The notes under the pieces: generated by a model | What the model saw: the letters and a program-made list of their open reading frames with translations, nothing else | Told to the model about the DNA's origin: nothing | Databases searched by the model: none | Translations under genes and position numbers: made by a program | NCBI RefSeq assembly: GCF_000010305.1 | Contig: NC_012489.1 | Location: forward strand, 4,223,646-4,287,645 | Source: Gemmatimonas aurantiaca T-27 | Lineage (GTDB): Bacteria; Gemmatimonadota; Gemmatimonadetes; Gemmatimonadales; Gemmatimonadaceae | DNA: 64,000 nt | Direction of reading: 5' to 3' | Shown: positions 15,901-40,141 of the stretch, piece after piece | Layout of the letters: every line of letters starts with the position of its first letter | Position numbering within the stretch: position 1 is the stretch's first letter

Positions 15901-15996
15901 GATCCGTGATCGCCGGTACGCGATCCGCTGTGTGGAGCACATTGATGTGAGCATGGATGCACAGTGCGGCCTCCTGACACGCTTCGGTGCACACAA
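12976..15996 (-). CDS. Exported TAP-like alpha/beta hydrolase fused to a degenerate metallo-beta-lactamase-like domain
   Basis: 1006-aa protein. The start is uncertain: a TTG/ATG choice places Met15 (MLTSMCST) as a likely start before the signal peptide ending near ASAQS. Residues about 60-500 are a tripeptidyl/prolyl aminopeptidase-type alpha/beta hydrolase: GGPGGSG oxyanion loop, DQRGTGRSD, nucleophile in GMSYG (about residue 236), acid in SGSMDGRTP (about 453), His in DGAGHDDD (about 483). After a Pro/Ala linker, residues about 540-1006 resemble the Gemmatimonadota-type MBL-fold lipoproteins (MGGDSALRAI opening, then an MBL core). In the core the zinc motif HxHxDH is replaced by ARPGMGN just before GGARWFA, so metal binding should be lost. 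Two usually separate genes seem fused. Confidence 0.75.
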   Translation of the reverse strand: MCAPKRVRRPHCASMLTSMCSTQRIAYRRSRIVRRVGFTASLVLASLATLRAASAQSGASSQIRFEPYTLVTRAHGSIDAELGVLDVPRRHAVPNGPAQTLRVVRLRAIRATPGIAPVIYLAGGPGGSGIEAARGGRWPVFDAVRQHADVILLDQRGTGRSDPPPSCPRPAAAPLHNDSLITEARYVATVQQETSRCVAWWRGQGVDLAAYTTVESAHDIDALRRALGVEQVSLWGMSYGTHLALATLRLHPTVVQRVVLMGTEGPDHTWKDPRDADAILGRLSAWSAKDPVARTMTPDLQRSLRDAVQSLAKRPLTGTVQGPPGVGGPMVIGAFDLQLAVAAALGRTQTASLVPVMLSQVQQGDASLVAQLVSGLRDAVLRPAAMPLAMDLASGASRARRSLVQNGERRSVLGSALNFPWTTLEAADFGVPDLGDAFRAPLRSATPTLFISGSMDGRTPPSNADEVRRGFRRATTLLLDGAGHDDDLWVASPRIAEVLARFLNGETVASDTITTPMLRVPAPPAGAETPASASARAPAAASAPPADRVASALLDRAIARMGGDSALRAITTMRMDLLTQWQRTTFAEHPYPDQPSFERNSDLRNYALKGWRNVRMPLTGGTFVDIVRDTVAARSFNGPGGTPTVMPLNIAYITERREQFAFAPEQMLLLARKAGDLHAQRDTSIDGVIHARVFATVDGFPSTWFLRRTDGLPALVRFVADETNDFGLASWGVMSVEIWFSNWTRVPPGVFLPRQRDIRRVGRPYKRITALAITVNAPAPADSFAISDEMAARYLATERRPMWQLPFDSVRVTADHFVVFPQLVGSAGAVRIGGGWVLFETAQSEGSLPTIDAWLTRATGVGLAAGVVARPGMGNGGARWFARSNRALYVAPGTRAVVQSLLATDPTSIAGSAKAVGKTAPRTAMVVPTTPRWVRVGNDSLWLEAIDLPDAPGVLTAYSPTHRWVYSPMLGVPNYKPEYDALLARWRARGWIVEWQGSLRGVRAPI

Positions 15997-16064
15997 TCGC
16001 CGAACGACACCAACAGCCCGCTGAACGACACCGGCCGATCAGCGGTGCCGTACTACCTTCCATC

Positions 16065-17840
16065 ATGGTTGCCTCGCGCCTGCGTCTGGTCCTCATCCCC
16101 TTCCTGCTGTTCTCGTTGCTCATCGTCGGCTTCATGCTTGGCGACGCACCAGCGGGTGCGCACATCGAAGCAATGGGCATGCGGCTCGACACCGATCCGG
16201 TGGCGCAATGGCGTCCACTCGACGGTCGGCTACTGCGGGGCTGGGCCGGTCCCTACACACTGCGCTATCGCGTGGTGCTCACGGATTCACACACCGCCCG
16301 CCCGCTGGGCATTCTCATGGGACTGCGCGCGGCGAGCGTAGCGACCTGGGATGATGTGGCGCTGGCGCCGAATGGTGTGGTAGGGAACAGTCGGTCGTCG
16401 GAAGTACCAGGACGGATTGACTGGATTGTGCCGGTGCCAACCACGCGCGCTGCACCCGGTCCGCACACGCTCACGATTCGTGCATCAAGTCAGCGAGTGA
16501 TGCCCGGTTTCTCGCGCGCGGATCTGCAGGTGCGTGTGCAGGCGCTCGACGAGCTCTATGGCATGCGCTACCGCGGATGGCTGCTGCCGGCATTGGCGGT
16601 GGGATGCATGCTCGTGGCTGCACTGTATGTCGGTGCGGTGATTGCGCGCACCGGAGCGCGACAGGGTGCCTGGCCACTACTCGGGCTGTGTGTGGTGGGC
16701 ATCGTGCTTCCCGCCCTCGAGGCGTGGCGGCCTCTCGTGGGATATCCCTACGATCTGCATCTGGCTCGATTGCTCGCCATTCGTATCCTCACCGCGATAT
16801 CGGCGCTGCTGCTGCCCGCCTACTTCGCGTTGCGGTTTGGCCGGCATCCACTCTCTCGTCGCCGATCCATCGCCTATGGACTCTATGCGCTGCTCGTGCT
16901 GGGAGTGGCGCTCTTCGCGGCCCCCTTCGATCTGGCGGGATGGATTCTGCATGTGAGTGGACTGGGCATGTCCATACTCATCACCCGGCGCGCCATCAAC
17001 GGTGGCTGGCATAGCACCGCTGGAATGCTCACAGTGCTGCTGGCCACCACTCTCGTGGCTGCGTTGCTCGCACCAGGCATCTACATCGATGGTCTATACG
17101 TCATTGCCTTTGCCGCGATTCTGGTGACCGTACTGCTCGCCCACGCGGGATACTTGCGTGCAAGCGCCGAGCAGAGCGCGGCGCTCGAGGCAGCCCGAGC
17201 ACGTCTGAGCACGGCATTGCTGCGCGGTAGCATTCATCCGCATTGGCTCATGAATACGCTGACGTCGCTCCAGGAGCTCATCGAGCGCTCACCAGCGGAT
17301 GCCAGTCGCATGGTGGAGCTGCTGGCCGAAGAATTTCGCATGGTGCGTGCGGCCAGCGAAGAGGGGTGGATTCCTGTGGACGAAGAGGTCACACTCTGTC
17401 GAACACATCTGGCGATTGTCTCGATTGGTCGGCCTGAGCCACTCACGTTGCGGGTTGAAGGAGCCACGCTGTGGCGAGAGCATGCCCTGCCACCCGGTGT
17501 GTTGCACACGCTGATCGAGAATGGTCTCACACACGGGGCCAACGCCGCGTACCACGGTGATGGTGCCTCATCGGCATCCGCAGTCTCGGATTTTGTGCTG
17601 CAGGCGCACGCGCAGGATGCGACATACCTCACCCTTGTCATGTCCGTGCCTGGCGTCCCCCGTACGGGCAAGTCGATTGTTCCGGGCACGGGCACCCGTT
17701 TCATCGAGGCCAGCTTGCGCACGGCCTTCGACAACGACTGGCAGTTTGCGCAGGCGGCGCACGGTGGCCGATGGGTGAGCACACTGCGGCTCCCGCGGGC
17801 GGCGATGCGACATGGATGGCGGGAGCGTGGGGCATGCTGA
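16065..17840 (+). CDS. LytS-type membrane sensor histidine kinase
   Basis: 591-aa sensor kinase from ATG 16065 (MVASRLRLVLIPF); the 26 upstream codons overlap the divergent gene. A first membrane helix (about 5-25) is followed by an extracytoplasmic beta-domain of about 150 residues and then some seven hydrophobic helices (about 170-350), recalling 7TMR-DISM sensors. The kinase part has the His_kinase box IHPHWLMNTLTSLQ with probable phospho-acceptor H393, and an ATPase with TLIENGLTHG as N-box and a short GTGTRFIEASL G-box. The response regulator ATG (17834) overlaps its stop (17838-17840), so the pair is translationally coupled. Signal unknown. Confidence 0.88.
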   Translation: MVASRLRLVLIPFLLFSLLIVGFMLGDAPAGAHIEAMGMRLDTDPVAQWRPLDGRLLRGWAGPYTLRYRVVLTDSHTARPLGILMGLRAASVATWDDVALAPNGVVGNSRSSEVPGRIDWIVPVPTTRAAPGPHTLTIRASSQRVMPGFSRADLQVRVQALDELYGMRYRGWLLPALAVGCMLVAALYVGAVIARTGARQGAWPLLGLCVVGIVLPALEAWRPLVGYPYDLHLARLLAIRILTAISALLLPAYFALRFGRHPLSRRRSIAYGLYALLVLGVALFAAPFDLAGWILHVSGLGMSILITRRAINGGWHSTAGMLTVLLATTLVAALLAPGIYIDGLYVIAFAAILVTVLLAHAGYLRASAEQSAALEAARARLSTALLRGSIHPHWLMNTLTSLQELIERSPADASRMVELLAEEFRMVRAASEEGWIPVDEEVTLCRTHLAIVSIGRPEPLTLRVEGATLWREHALPPGVLHTLIENGLTHGANAAYHGDGASSASAVSDFVLQAHAQDATYLTLVMSVPGVPRTGKSIVPGTGTRFIEASLRTAFDNDWQFAQAAHGGRWVSTLRLPRAAMRHGWRERGAC

Positions 17841-18532
17841 GGGTGCTGATTGTCGAAGATGAGCCGTTGGTACAGCAGCGCATCGCGCGACTGTGTCGCG
17901 AGCTGCTTGGCCCATCGGCACAGATCGACTGCGCCGCGTCGCTGGACGATGCCGACGACGCGCTGCGTCAACGCGCCATCGATGTCTTGCTGCTCGATCT
18001 CAACCTGCAAGGCGACGATGGCTTCACGCTGCTGCATCGGGCGATCGCGTCCACGTTCCACACGATCGTCATCTCGGCGCATGCGGATCGAGCACTCGAC
18101 GCCTTCGCGCTCGGCGTACTCGACTTCCTCGCCAAGCCGTTTGCAACAGCGCGACTGGCACAGGCGCTGGAACGCGCGCAGGTCGCGTCCCGCACCTCCG
18201 GGCGCGCAACCCAGCAGCTCGGCGTGTGGCGCGCACGGGGTGTGGCGCTGGTGCCGGTGGAGGAAATCGCGTGGATCCAGGCGGATGGTGACTACAGCGC
18301 GTTGCAGCTCGTGAACGGTCGTCGTGAACTGCACGACAAGAGTCTGGATCGTCTGCAGCAATTGCTGCCCGCGGCCTTCGTGCGTATCCACCGTTCCTAT
18401 CTCGTGAACATGCAGCAGGCCGACGCCCTGCATGTCGAAGGGGGTGGTCGTTATCGCCTCCGCATGCAGGGAGGCACCGAACTACCCGTGGGGCGGTCGC
18501 GGGCGCAATCGGTGCGGGAGCGATTGCTGTAG
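17834..18532 (+). CDS. LytTR-family response regulator
   Basis: 232-aa DNA-binding response regulator. ATG 17834 is chosen because it begins MLRVLIVEDEP, the classic receiver strand, and overlaps the kinase stop. Acidic pocket E8/D9, phospho-acceptor D55 in LLLDLNLQG, conserved Lys K101 in AKPF. The C-terminal LytTR domain (about 130-232) shows VEEIAWIQADGDYSALQL, LPAAFVRIHRSYLVN and GTELPVGRSRAQ, the hallmarks of this beta-sheet DNA-binding fold. LytTR targets are usually paired 9-bp direct repeats, which I could not find confidently nearby. Target genes are unknown. Confidence 0.94.
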   Translation: MLRVLIVEDEPLVQQRIARLCRELLGPSAQIDCAASLDDADDALRQRAIDVLLLDLNLQGDDGFTLLHRAIASTFHTIVISAHADRALDAFALGVLDFLAKPFATARLAQALERAQVASRTSGRATQQLGVWRARGVALVPVEEIAWIQADGDYSALQLVNGRRELHDKSLDRLQQLLPAAFVRIHRSYLVNMQQADALHVEGGGRYRLRMQGGTELPVGRSRAQSVRERLL

Positions 18533-18933
18533 CAATCCTGCCTCAAAAGTTGGCAACGATTTGAGCGGCACTTGGGCATCAGCACCCTCCCCAACAATTC
18601 AAACGCGCTACCCTTCATTCCCTTTCCATCCTGCGGCTTTCGCGCGCAGCGCCGGCGGGTAGCCCTTTCCATCCATGGCCTTTCCTTTCCGTGCCGAGCA
18701 TGTCGTGTCGCGGGACGGCAAAGGGACTCAAGGGTTACCTGCCGGCGCTGCGCGCGAAAACGGCAGGATGGGAAGGGAATGAAGGGAGTGATTTATTGCG
18801 TGATTGGTATTGGAGTTCATTTTTGACAACATCGAGTCGGGACACCCCGTAGCTTTCGAGGGACCGGCATCGTGCTCACAGCACGCAGGATCATGCCGCC
18901 CGAACGGGTTTTGGCCCTCCCTCGATCCCACCA
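18533..18933. other. Intergenic region with a long palindrome
   Basis: About 400 nt between the LytTR gene and a metalloprotease gene. It holds the long imperfect inverted repeat at 18611-18787 and, after it, a TTGACA-like box near 18826 without a convincing -10. I see no convincing coding sequence here; the short open frames across the repeat are mirror-image artefacts of the palindrome. Confidence 0.6.
18611..18787. repeat. Long imperfect inverted repeat (two ~57-bp arms)
   Basis: The left arm 18611-18668 and right arm 18730-18787 are reverse complements with about five mismatches in 57 positions by eye. The best-matched core is CGCGCGCAGCGCCGGC. The loop of about 61 nt (18669-18729) itself contains short complementary pieces (TTTCCGTGCCG with CGGCAAAGG). 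A transcript would fold into a hairpin of about 177 nt. It may be a REP/BIME-like or non-autonomous mobile palindrome, or a structured RNA; no transposase is nearby. Confidence 0.75.
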
Positions 18934-21498
18934 ATGCGCTATAGCCCATCTCCACTTGCCTCGGTCGGTCTGGCGACCGCAGGCCTCTTGCTCGGTGCCT
19001 GCGCGCCGAAACCCACGCCGGCACCTGCGCCCGCTCCGGCGGCGAGCCGTCCTGCGGGAGCAACAACCCCTGCCCCGGGTGGCGCGCCCAGCGCACAGCC
19101 TGCTGGTGGTGCAGCCGGCGGCGGACAGGATCCGCAGCCTCGCGCCTACAACGCCGTCATCACATCGCGCGCGGTGACCAAGAGCGGCGTGTTCAAGGTG
19201 CACCAGGTGGGCTCGCGTCTGTACTTCGAGATTCCCCGCGCCGAGCTGGGCAAGGACTATGTAGTGGTCACCACGCTGGCCGGTACGCCCGATGAAATCG
19301 GCCTTCGCGGCACCCAGGGTGGCAACAACGTGGTGCGCTTCGAACGCCGCGATCATCGCATCTATGTGCGCGAAGCCTCGTTCCGGGACATGATTGCCGA
19401 TACGGCCGCTTCGCAGCGGCTGGCAGCGGAACTGATCGGCGTGACCAAAATCCTCGCCGCGCTCAACGTCGAAGCCTATGGCCCCGACAGTGCCGCGGTG
19501 GTGGAGGTGACGCGCATGTTCACGGGCGGCGTACCCGAATACTCGGCGCTCGGACGTCGTGCACAGGTGGATGCCGCCCGATCATACATCGAACGGTTCG
19601 CCGCCTACTCGCGCAATGTGAACGTGACGGCCGTGCAGTCCTTCACGCCGCAGGGTGCGGCGCCGGCAGGTGGCGGTGGCCCGCCGGGCGCGGCCAACCC
19701 CAATGCGCCCAGTACGGAGAAGTACACCTTCTCCATCGCCAAGCTGCCGGAACAACCGATGATGCCGCGCATGCACGACGAACGCGTGGGCTACGGCACC
19801 GTGGTGCAGCGGGATTTCTCCGGGGCCACCCAGCGCGTGGAAACGCGGCGCTACATCTCGCGGTGGCGCCTCGAGTGCAGTGATCGCAAGGTGGGCAACC
19901 TGTGTGTGCCCAAGAAGCCCATCACGTATTACCTCGACCCGGCCACACCGGCCTGGATCAAGCCGTGGATCCGCAAGGGCATCGAAGCCTGGGTGCCGGC
20001 GTTCGAGGCGGCCGGTTTTCATCAGGGTATCGTCGCGGCCGAAGCACCCGCCAACGATCCCGATTTCTCGGGTGAAGATGCCACGGTGAGCATGGTGCGC
20101 TGGTTGCCGTCGGCCACCGAAAATGCCGTGGGTCCATCGCTCAAGGATCCGCGCACCGGTGAAATTCTCGACGCCGATGTGCAGACGTATCTCAACGTCA
20201 TGAACCTGACGCGGGCCTGGTACTTCACGCAGGTCGCACCGCTCGATCCGCGCGCGCAGAAGCTGCCGTTCCCTGACACACTGGCCGGGCGTTTGCTCGA
20301 GTACGTGACCGCGCACGAAGTGGGACACACACTGGGCTTCCCGCACAACTTCAAGGCCAGCTCGATGTATCCGCTGGACTCGGTGCGCTCGAAGACGTGG
20401 GTGGCCAAGATGGGCCACACGCCCACGCTGATGGACTATTCGCGCTACAACTATGTCGCGCAACCCGAAGATGGTATCGCGCTGGACGACCTGATCCCCA
20501 AGGTCGGTCCGTATGACATCTATGCCGTGAAGTGGGGCTACAGCCCCATCGCCGGAGCCCGCACGCCAGACGACGAGCGTCGTCAGCTCGACCAGTGGGC
20601 ACGCATGCAGGACACCATTCCGTGGTATCGCTTCAGCGGTGATGCCGGCGGTGTGGACCCCGCAGAACAGTCGGAAGCCGTTGGTGATGCCGACGCCGTG
20701 CGCGCCACCGCACTGGGCATCAAGAATCTCAAGCGCGTGATGGGGTTCCTGGAGAGCGCCACGGCGTGGAAGGAAGGCGACACGTACGACAATCTCGAGG
20801 AACTGTACGGCCGCACCGTGAATCAGTGGGCCACCGAGCTCGGTCACGTGGCGCGCATCGTCGGTTCCGAATACCGACACGAGAAGGTGGTGGGTCAGGT
20901 CGGTCCGATCTGGCGCAACGTGGAGCCGGCACGCCAGAAGGAAGCCGTGCAATTCCTGCTCGACAACGCCTACGTCACGCCCACCTGGTTGCTCGACGAA
21001 AATATCCTGCGCAAAGTGGAGCCGAGCGGCTCCCTGAATCGTGTGGGCGCCGCGCAGGCCCGCTCACTCACCGCCATGCTGGCCAACGACCGGCTCGTGC
21101 GCATGGTCGAACTGGAAGCCCGGGCGAGCACACGGCGGGATGTGTATCCGGTGGCCGAGCTGCTCACCGATCTGCGCCGTGGGCTGTGGAAGGAGACGGC
21201 AACGGGCGCGCCGATCGACGCGTTCCGTCGCCGTTTGCAGCGCGTGTATCTCGAGCAGATGGCGGCGAAGATCAATCCGCCGACACCGGCCGCTGGTGGT
21301 CAGGGCGGCCAGGGTGGTGGGTTCGGCGGACAGGCACCGGTGAGCCCGGCCGACATCCGTCCCATCATCAAGAGCGAAATGCGAGCGCTCGACGCGCAGC
21401 TCGCGGCGGCGATTGGCCGGACCAGTGACCGCATGAGCAAGGCGCACCTCGAAGATGCGCGCGACCAGATCAAGACGATGCTGGATCCCAAGAACTGA
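18934..21498 (+). CDS. Zinc-dependent metzincin-like lipoprotein protease (DUF5117/DUF4953 type), copy 1
   Basis: 854-aa lipoprotein: signal peptide with lipobox LGAC, then a Pro/Ala-rich tether (to about residue 65). An N-terminal beta domain follows, then CSDRKVGNLCVPKKPITYYLDP and the catalytic domain with HEVGHTLGFPH (His461, His465, His471), which fits HExxHxxGxxH, and a Met-turn in LMDYSRY. This is the architecture of the DUF5118-DUF5117-DUF4953 zinc protease family. It presumably acts in the periplasm or at the outer membrane; substrate unknown. A Gly-rich insert (GGQGGQGGGFGG) lies near the C terminus. It ends at a strong bidirectional terminator and has a close paralogue 1 kb downstream. 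Confidence 0.9.
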   Translation: MRYSPSPLASVGLATAGLLLGACAPKPTPAPAPAPAASRPAGATTPAPGGAPSAQPAGGAAGGGQDPQPRAYNAVITSRAVTKSGVFKVHQVGSRLYFEIPRAELGKDYVVVTTLAGTPDEIGLRGTQGGNNVVRFERRDHRIYVREASFRDMIADTAASQRLAAELIGVTKILAALNVEAYGPDSAAVVEVTRMFTGGVPEYSALGRRAQVDAARSYIERFAAYSRNVNVTAVQSFTPQGAAPAGGGGPPGAANPNAPSTEKYTFSIAKLPEQPMMPRMHDERVGYGTVVQRDFSGATQRVETRRYISRWRLECSDRKVGNLCVPKKPITYYLDPATPAWIKPWIRKGIEAWVPAFEAAGFHQGIVAAEAPANDPDFSGEDATVSMVRWLPSATENAVGPSLKDPRTGEILDADVQTYLNVMNLTRAWYFTQVAPLDPRAQKLPFPDTLAGRLLEYVTAHEVGHTLGFPHNFKASSMYPLDSVRSKTWVAKMGHTPTLMDYSRYNYVAQPEDGIALDDLIPKVGPYDIYAVKWGYSPIAGARTPDDERRQLDQWARMQDTIPWYRFSGDAGGVDPAEQSEAVGDADAVRATALGIKNLKRVMGFLESATAWKEGDTYDNLEELYGRTVNQWATELGHVARIVGSEYRHEKVVGQVGPIWRNVEPARQKEAVQFLLDNAYVTPTWLLDENILRKVEPSGSLNRVGAAQARSLTAMLANDRLVRMVELEARASTRRDVYPVAELLTDLRRGLWKETATGAPIDAFRRRLQRVYLEQMAAKINPPTPAAGGQGGQGGGFGGQAPVSPADIRPIIKSEMRALDAQLAAAIGRTSDRMSKAHLEDARDQIKTMLDPKN

Positions 21499-38724: not shown

Positions 38725-38776
38725 AAACAGCGGGGGAACACAGAGCACGCGGAAACGGAGCAGATAGCACCGATAC
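38725..38776 (+). repeat. Left arm of palindromic repeat split by the IS
   Basis: 52-nt arm that is the reverse complement of 40088-40141 except for a few differences; 34 consecutive core positions match exactly (containing ACACAGAGCACGCGGAAACG). It lies outside the IS terminal repeats. Confidence 0.85.
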
Positions 38777-38784
38777 CACAAAAA

Positions 38785-38840: not shown

Positions 38841-39299
38841 ATGGAACGCAGCCGTCGCCAGTTTAGTCCCGAGTTGAAGCAACGGATTGTCGAAGAGCTC
38901 GAAGCCGGGCACCTGTCGGTGCGGGAAGCGGCCCGGACCGTGCAGACCAGCGCGGCGATGGTGCATCACTGGCTGGAGGAGTTCGGGCGGTATCGACCGA
39001 AACGGGATGTCGTGGAGGTGGTGATGAAGAGTGAACAGGAGCGCATTGCCGCGCTCGAGAAGGCGTTGGCCGAGGCGCATCTGACCCTCCAGGTCTACGA
39101 CGAGCTCATCACCCAAGCGAACCGCGTGTACAAGACCGATCTAAAAAAAAGCTTTGGTACAACACCGCGCGGGCCTGTTGCGACGAGCGGGCCCTCCCCG
39201 TCCGGGCCGTCTGCGCGCGCCTCGGACGCACCCGCGACGCGTACTACAAACGTGCGGCCCGCGTCGGGGGCGGGGAGCGCGGGGCGTCGAAAGCGGTAG
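38841..39299 (+). CDS. IS3-family transposase OrfA
   Basis: 152-aa frame. Residues 1-60 are a helix-turn-helix (FSPELKQRIVEELEAGHLSVREAARTVQ..) that binds the terminal repeats; residues about 60-100 form a leucine-zipper-like helix (IAALEKALAEAHLTLQVYDEL) for multimerisation. The sensible part ends near residue 105 at the A8 run; the rest is out-of-frame Ser/Pro/Arg sequence, expected if most functional product is made by frameshifting into OrfB. The stop overlaps the GTG at 39299. Confidence 0.88.
   Translation: MERSRRQFSPELKQRIVEELEAGHLSVREAARTVQTSAAMVHHWLEEFGRYRPKRDVVEVVMKSEQERIAALEKALAEAHLTLQVYDELITQANRVYKTDLKKSFGTTPRGPVATSGPSPSGPSARASDAPATRTTNVRPASGAGSAGRRKR
39143..39150 (+). other. Programmed -1 frameshift site (A8 slippery run)
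   Basis: Eight consecutive A at the end of OrfA's conserved part (CTA AAA AAA AGC in frame). A -1 slip continues directly into a frame reading KLWYNTARACCDERALPVRAVC, the conserved N terminus of IS3 OrfB, with no stop before 40012. Confidence 0.75.
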
Positions 39300-40012
39300 T
39301 GCTCGCGCAGGTGGCCGTGGTGCGCGCGGCACAGCCCCGCGTCGGGACGCGGAAACTGCACACCCATTTGGCCGCCGCCGGCGTGGCCGTCGGTCGTGAT
39401 CGGCTCTTCACGTGGCTGCGGGCGGCGGCGGCGCTCGTGCCGCGCAAGCGGCGGCGGACGTTTACCACGTATTCGAAGCACGGGTATGTCGTGGCGCCGA
39501 ATCGCTTGAAGGACGCGGAGATCACGGGACCGCGTCAGGCGGTCGTGAGCGACAGTACGTATCTGCGCCTCGCGCCCGATCGCTTCGCGTATTTGTTTCT
39601 CGTCACCGACGTGTATGCCCGCCGCATCGTCGGCTGGCATCTGAGCCAGGATCTCTCGCACCACAGTGCGCTGCAGGCGCTCCACCACGCGATCCAGACG
39701 ATCGGCGCGGCCGATGGCGTGCTGCATCATTCGGACCGCGGGAGTCAGTACTGCTGTCACGCGTATCGCCGGGCTCTCGCCGCCGCGCGCTTGCTACCCA
39801 GCATGACCGATGCGAATCACTGCTATCAGAACGCCATCGCCGAACGCGTCAATGGGATCTTGAAAGACGAATTTGATCTCGACGCGATCTTCCCGTCTCT
39901 CCCAGCGGCTCAGCGGGCCGTCGCCGACGCCATTCACCGCTACAACACCGTCCGCCTCCACGGGAGTCTCCAGCTGCAGACCCCCGCACACGTATTCACG
40001 CACGCAGCCTGA
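39143..40012 (+). CDS. IS3-family transposase OrfB (DDE integrase), read by -1 frameshift
   Basis: Catalytic half of the transposase. The coding frame is open from the A8 run; an independent GTG start exists only at 39299, which would drop the N-terminal LPVRAVCARLGRTRDAYYKR region. The rve core carries the DDE triad: first Asp in VVSDSTYLRLA, second Asp in HHSDRGSQY, Glu in QNAIAERVNGILKDEF, with the typical Lys/Arg seven residues after the Glu. It ends with RLHGSLQLQTPAHVF. Expressed as OrfAB fusion it should be the active transposase. Confidence 0.88.
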   Translation, partial: KKKLWYNTARACCDERALPVRAVCARLGRTRDAYYKRAARVGGGERGASKAVVLAQVAVVRAAQPRVGTRKLHTHLAAAGVAVGRDRLFTWLRAAAALVPRKRRRTFTTYSKHGYVVAPNRLKDAEITGPRQAVVSDSTYLRLAPDRFAYLFLVTDVYARRIVGWHLSQDLSHHSALQALHHAIQTIGAADGVLHHSDRGSQYCCHAYRRALAAARLLPSMTDANHCYQNAIAERVNGILKDEFDLDAIFPSLPAAQRAVADAIHRYNTVRLHGSLQLQTPAHVFTHAA

Positions 40013-40060: not shown

Positions 40061-40087
40061 TCATGCTGTAATGTTTTTTTGAGTGTT

Positions 40088-40141
40088 GTATCGGTGTCAT
40101 CTGCTCCGTTTCCGCGTGCTCTGTGTTCCCCCCGCTTGTTT
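40088..40141 (+). repeat. Right arm of palindromic repeat split by the IS
   Basis: 54-nt arm complementary to 38725-38776. Between the IS right end and this arm, 40061-40087 holds a T7 run that has no exact counterpart at the left junction. Confidence 0.85.

Follow-up and report, generated by a model that had tools for sequence, protein, structure and literature searches.

R1, a low-copy family of REP-like inverted pairs found near gene ends in the RAYT-less genome of Gemmatimonas aurantiaca T-27

Introduction

REPINs, as presented in the part of PMC3116915 drawn on here, are extragenic and are built from a short palindromic unit that occurs mostly as inverted, hairpin-forming doublets, with some units found singly. 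According to the part of PMC3733652 used here, dimers of REP sequences tagged with GTAG or CGTC come in both HH and TT arrangements and can form one large stem-loop, with spacers that are mostly of 20 to 100 bp and sometimes paired; the main text of that paper does not mention Gemmatimonas. The part of PMC1525189 relied on here describes IS3 elements with PF01527 that have REP sequences as their targets. On palindromes and intergenic repeats of Gemmatimonas aurantiaca and the Gemmatimonadota, literature titles and the opening lines of abstracts held nothing about the elements described below.

Here we describe R1, a new family of REP-like dimers that has few copies and no RAYT in its genome and is known so far from T-27 alone among 30 genomes of the genus. 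One of its copies is a palindrome of about 177 nt in the window, as we call the whole 64-kb stretch of T-27 DNA that was analyzed. Set against the cited part of the REPIN description (PMC3116915), R1 is alike in its short unit, inverted doublets, extragenic place, and single units, but its genome is without PF01797 (RAYT, the REP transposase), its unit was modelled at 61 nt, and only 29 units were found at E ≤ 1. With the tagged REP dimers, as far as the cited part of PMC3733652 describes them, it shares both inverted orders, the spacers, and the possibility of a single large stem-loop, whereas its 29 aligned units, inspected by eye, have no conserved GTAG or CGTC tag. By the marks of a REP or REPIN, R1 is a repeated, extragenic short palindrome that occurs mostly as inverted doublets, and it lacks the GTAG/CGTC tag, a genomic RAYT or Y1 transposase, and a high copy number (29 units at E ≤ 1).

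Results and Discussion

The window palindrome is an inverted pair of R1 units

An earlier note on this DNA had described a large imperfect hairpin, with arms of about 57 nt and about five mismatches, between a LytTR gene and a protease gene. The hairpin was borne out: 52 of the 57 arm positions are paired (91% complementary, five mismatches), with 62 nt between the arms. With a score of 42, it was the sole inverted repeat scoring at least 20 across the 64-kb window in a scan for arms at most 250 nt apart, and when the whole window was dinucleotide-shuffled 30 times, the highest score reached was 17. The RNA fold of positions 18600 to 18800 was computed at −142 kcal/mol, against −77 ± 4 kcal/mol in shuffles (z = −15), and none of 200 shuffles equaled it. 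As the note had also seen, the loop has complementarity of its own, the spacer forming a smaller hairpin, and a sequence is repeated in the left arm and at the loop border. This repeat, CCCTTTCCATCC, lies at 18620-18631 and 18663-18674. It is a purine motif that borders the core of the left R1 unit at both sides; on the opposite strand, the two copies are GGATGGAAAGGG motifs on either side of that core. The labels given to the neighboring genes were likewise correct, as judged from their domains (Table 1), and the histidine kinase, LytTR regulator, and Met-zincin protease genes are all on the plus strand.

Table 1. Positions of the palindrome, its parts, its neighboring genes, and the insertion sequence in the window
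Feature	Window position	Genome position	Strand	Remarks
Whole inverted repeat	18611..18786		.	Arms 18611-18667 and 18730-18786
R1 unit, left copy	18613..18674	G000:C1:4242258-4242319	-	70.0 bits; alone, without the 7 + 4 fold
R1 unit, right copy	18723..18784	G000:C1:4242368-4242429	+	74.6 bits; alone, 7-bp outer and 4-bp inner stem
Spacer, 62 nt	18668..18729		.	Smaller hairpin of its own
Sensor histidine kinase	15987..17840		+	His_kinase PF06580; 3′ end overlaps start of longest LytTR frame
Response regulator, LytTR domain	17771..18532		+	Response_reg and LytTR; palindrome starts 79 nt past last base
Met-zincin protease	18934..21498		+	DUF5118/DUF5117/DUF4953; 147 nt from palindrome to ATG
IS3-like element between R2 arms	38841-40012			Position of its HTH_Tnp_1 (PF01527) and rve frames

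The palindrome is an inverted pair of a unit of about 61 nt, R1, and a search of its own genome (one contig, 4,636,964 bases) with the whole palindrome returned further full and half copies. We built a covariance model of 61 positions from 16 arm-length units. The count of genomic copies that the earlier note had proposed, made with this model at E ≤ 1, gave 29 matches at 17 places, so that the palindrome is not a unique occurrence. Twelve of the places are inverted pairs, which take in 24 of the 29 units, and 5 are singles; 3 pairs, the window's among them, are in minus/plus order and 9 in plus/minus order. Bit scores run from 77 down to 19.9 (L109), a range which implies that some units have decayed. 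The dispersal of the arm unit fits the note's suggestion of a mobile palindrome, with past mobility as an inference. Inspection of the R1 flanks by eye gave no obvious target-site duplication such as a MITE would have.

Conserved along the unit are an AAGGG head, an inner hairpin, and the motifs GAAARC and GCAKGA, the last usually followed by GAAGGG. When units are folded singly, 4 of the 29 adopt a REP-like minimum-energy structure, with a 7-bp outer stem, a 4-bp inner stem (GCGC/GCGC), a TGC loop, and a 3′ bulge (GAAAA); the window's right unit is one of the four, and its left unit is not. An E. coli REP is put together similarly, from an outer stem, a bulge, and an inner stem. Two versions of the R1 outer stem occur among the units, CCTGCCG/CGGCAGG and CCTGCTG/CAGCAGG, and the inner stems vary in length and sequence with pairing kept (GCGC/GCGC, GCCGC/GCGGC, GCGCCGC/GCGGCGC, and GCGTCGC/GCGACGC).

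The strong fold, together with a single weak hit in Rfam (MIR5284, 30.4 bits), could point to a small noncoding RNA gene or a microRNA-like precursor. We regard this as very improbable: the match falls below the MIR5284 gathering score of 93 bits, by which that identity was rejected, no promoter match was found at 18300-19100, and R1 is a dispersed family whose copies come after the ends of genes. MicroRNA families are of a eukaryotic kind. Ten palindrome-holding loci gave no Rfam match at gathering. Readings as an integron attC site, a CRISPR, or a retron were considered and set aside on general grounds.

Most R1 places lie near called stop codons, with an excess between convergent genes

Genes around the R1 places were called with a home-made codon-usage caller. 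Fifteen of the 17 places have a called stop codon no more than 90 nt away, and 16 are in called gaps or reach at most 14 nt over a called gene edge; the weakest unit, L109 (19.9 bits), overlaps a called gene by 14 nt and is far from any stop. Seven places are between convergent genes, 9 between tandem genes, and 1 (L105) between divergent genes. For comparison, we sampled 179 neighboring gene pairs from eleven stretches of the T-27 genome, one of them the window. Of these pairs, 23 were convergent, a significantly smaller share than the 7 of 17 R1 places (Fisher P = 0.006). The convergent excess held when only gaps of at least 50 nt (P = 0.010) or at least 100 nt (P = 0.002) were considered. 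When the places of R1 and of a second family, R2 (see below), were combined, divergent gaps showed no significant shortage (3 of 27).

On these grounds, we consider it probable that R1 is a REPIN- or BIME-like, RAYT-less dispersed element acting, in the window, as an RNA hairpin at the 3′ end of a putative LytTR operon. Two inverted R1 units of about 61 nt would form one giant hairpin. The family may have spread as a nonautonomous element by means of a separate mobilizing activity, and the window copy would now be part of the 3′ untranslated region that follows the histidine kinase and LytTR genes. There, the RNA hairpin would most likely mark or protect the transcript 3′ end and set the kinase-LytTR genes apart from the downstream protease gene. 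Counting against this reading are the missing T-run at the window copy, a REP-like fold in only 4 of 29 units, the absence of a RAYT, the places L105 and L109, the lack of a significant shortage of divergent gaps, and the lack of a clear excess of arm-to-arm compensation within R1 (see below).

Intrinsic bidirectional terminators also lie between or after genes, and by eye a T-rich hairpin can be seen inside several pairs of R1 and of R2; in the R1 plus/minus pairs L089, L091, L097, L101, and L103 it is terminator-like. The window copy differs: no intrinsic terminator or T-run was found at 18300-19100 in a scan that permits loops of 3 to 8 nt only. The stem of a usual terminator is far shorter than the window palindrome.

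R1 might instead be a neutral remnant of palindromes that were once mobile, without a present role, found at gene ends since insertions elsewhere get lost. We think this rather unlikely. Degenerate units scoring as low as 19.9 bits, single units, scattered mismatches, and the lack of a match in the 29 other genomes of the genus all speak for such a relic, but the excess between convergent genes, the inner stems that vary and yet pair, and the 52 of 57 paired positions of the window copy argue against it.

R1 was found in T-27 alone of 30 genus genomes, and no RAYT was found with it

Searches of 30 genomes of the genus found R1 in T-27 alone, both with the covariance model at E ≤ 0.01 and with the whole palindrome in a DNA search at E ≤ 0.001. 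The core of the R1 unit had no exact match in viral contigs, and the palindrome had no match in plasmids and phages (blastn, 1e-5).

PF01797 had no match in the T-27 genome at E ≤ 0.01, and T-27 is not among the 8 of the 30 genus genomes in which this family was found. A RAYT was therefore rejected as the mover of R1, which leaves R1 with no known mover. A family of palindromes from another genome of the genus, G001, occurs with at least 18 matches in ten genus genomes, three with PF01797 (G023, G024, and G026) and seven without. PF01797 is unmatched both in the R1 genome and in G001, which is rich in this other family; if palindromes turn over by place, as considered below, this would point to a mover other than a RAYT.

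A second dispersed family is interrupted by insertion sequences

The earlier note had set the window palindrome apart from another at 38.7 kb, and the two are indeed different. The latter is the left arm (38727-38780) of a copy of R2, a separate dispersed family with ends AGCGGGGGGAACACAGA, whose right arm lies at 40076-40136; the copy is split by an IS3-like element (Table 1). R2 was matched 85 times in its own genome at E ≤ 1e-3; from other genomes, 169 loci with 1.45 Mb in all gave no match. The window IS recurs, at 100% identity over 1,276 nt, between R2 arms at 135.0 to 136.4 kb (L282, G000:C1:133500-138500), and a different transposase (HTH_21 and rve by Pfam) lies between R2 arms at 3406.3 to 3407.7 kb (L283, G000:C1:3404700-3409200). 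These cases resemble the REP-targeting insertion sequences described in the cited part of PMC1525189 in that IS3-type elements lie in dispersed palindromes, although the palindromes here are R2, not R1. They differ in that the insertion separates the arms of a long palindrome and in that two different elements are involved at three places.

The gene context of R2 was 6 convergent, 2 tandem, and 2 divergent at 10 places, which are all the distinct unsplit places among 20 loci fetched (6 loci were second arms and 4 were at IS-split places). At the convergent places, R2 fills the gap to within 0 to 66 nt of the stop codons. Two copies of a third palindrome family of the T-27 genome, with GATCAACAGCCGGAT-like arms, were met by chance (L042:775-885 and L044:1199-1438).

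Orthologous sites in relatives often carry unrelated palindromes

The protease was matched in all 30 genus genomes, and a LytTR gene lies 5′ of it only in T-27 (30 loci fetched, with at most 1,500 nt of upstream sequence each). Thus, the gene upstream varies, while the arrangement of a gene followed by a palindrome recurs. Twenty-four protease orthologues, our own included, were at least 70% identical, and 22 remained after L061 and L071, which have no upstream sequence, were dropped. In 10 of these 22 loci, the gap upstream of the protease gene holds an inverted repeat scoring at least 20, and the 10 palindromes represent 7 types with no blastn similarity to one another at 1e-3. In all 9 loci with a called plus-strand upstream gene (our own included), the palindrome starts between −1 and 79 nt past the upstream stop codon, which speaks for the 3′-end reading given above. 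Downstream of the protease gene, palindromes were found in 2 of 23 gaps.

The unrelated types upstream of the protease gene, set against the 2 of 23 gaps downstream, could reflect place-bound turnover, which we hold to be less likely than not. In this view, certain gene 3′ ends repeatedly gain or rebuild palindromes of any sequence, whether through insertions into hairpins already present or through templated snap-back synthesis, so that a hairpin persists there although its sequence changes from clade to clade. The insertion sequences inside three R2 palindromes fit such a process. So does the gene at the second R1 site (L091), which has palindromes downstream in 8 of 24 loci, in four sequence clusters, and upstream in 0 of 30; palindromes on the short contigs L235 and L241 stand outside the 8 of 24. 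Against it, the T-27 pair at L091 is counted in the 24 and does not score (below 16 in the ungapped scan), one of the eight palindromes (L239) includes a run of N, and the gene at the third R1 site (L103) has palindromes downstream in 2 of 22 loci (our own and G002) and upstream in 3 of 23. The counts downstream of the protease gene and at the L091 and L103 genes left out rows below 60, 68, or 70% identity and gaps of at most 300 nt. As a background, 7 of 70 sampled gaps of 200 to 600 nt held a palindrome. Compared with this, the 6 types in 18 at the protease site, our own left out, gave a P value of 0.006, which rose to 0.13 with the background doubled, for a site that was picked for its palindrome here and not blind.

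Turnover of this kind would be compatible with our preferred reading of R1 as a 3′-end hairpin element, with place, not family, as what is kept. It is possible, though we would not call it probable, that in Gemmatimonas certain gene 3′ ends are kept as long palindromes whose sequence is swapped wholesale between clades by unrelated, clade-specific dispersed families that spread without a RAYT, shape and place being conserved. If so, selfish dispersal, which in REP biology is hard to tell apart from use at transcript ends, would here be parted from it, and a palindrome mover other than a RAYT would be indicated.

Compensatory changes are clearest in the palindromes of relatives

The earlier note had raised the possibility that the structure is under constraint and had proposed that covariation of the mismatches be scored. 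Scored in this way, constraint is only partly supported. Between the arms of the three minus/plus R1 pairs, 3 of 57 base pairs were changed on both sides, a figure matched by 93 of 500 shuffles, with 0 to 2 in slid controls; this lack of a clear excess over shuffles would be in keeping with a neutral relic. For the R1 inner stem, pairing was intact at all 85 cells of the 3 modelled pairs, and 2 double changes were seen, across 29 units in an alignment fitted to the stem.

Compensatory change was found in the sister palindromes of relatives. The palindrome at the protease site of G001, one of the 7 types, is multicopy in a sister clade: it has 51 matches in the G001 genome, a count that covers both strands and hence fewer places, and was matched in 15 of the 30 genus genomes, T-27 not among them. 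In 15 aligned copies of this family, mostly best matches (14 of 20 fetched loci and L062), 8 of 45 predicted pairs showed change on both sides. In three genomes that share one protease-site palindrome, 5 of 47 pairs were compensated, as many as in only 3 of 500 shuffles and against 0 or 1 in slid controls, although two of the three sequences are 98% identical, making this near one comparison.

Some palindromes at the orthologous sites also have an internal structure visible by eye. At the protease site, L068 (1080-1385) is a 306-nt palindrome in which CACGGCAACGGC-like repeats form the outer arms around a different core palindrome. In L233, L234, and L236, palindromes of about 250 to 340 nt lie 3′ of the L091-gene orthologue, and their arms look like short, degenerate direct repeats (ACTGCNACTGCGGTT), which suggests growth through slippage inside a hairpin.
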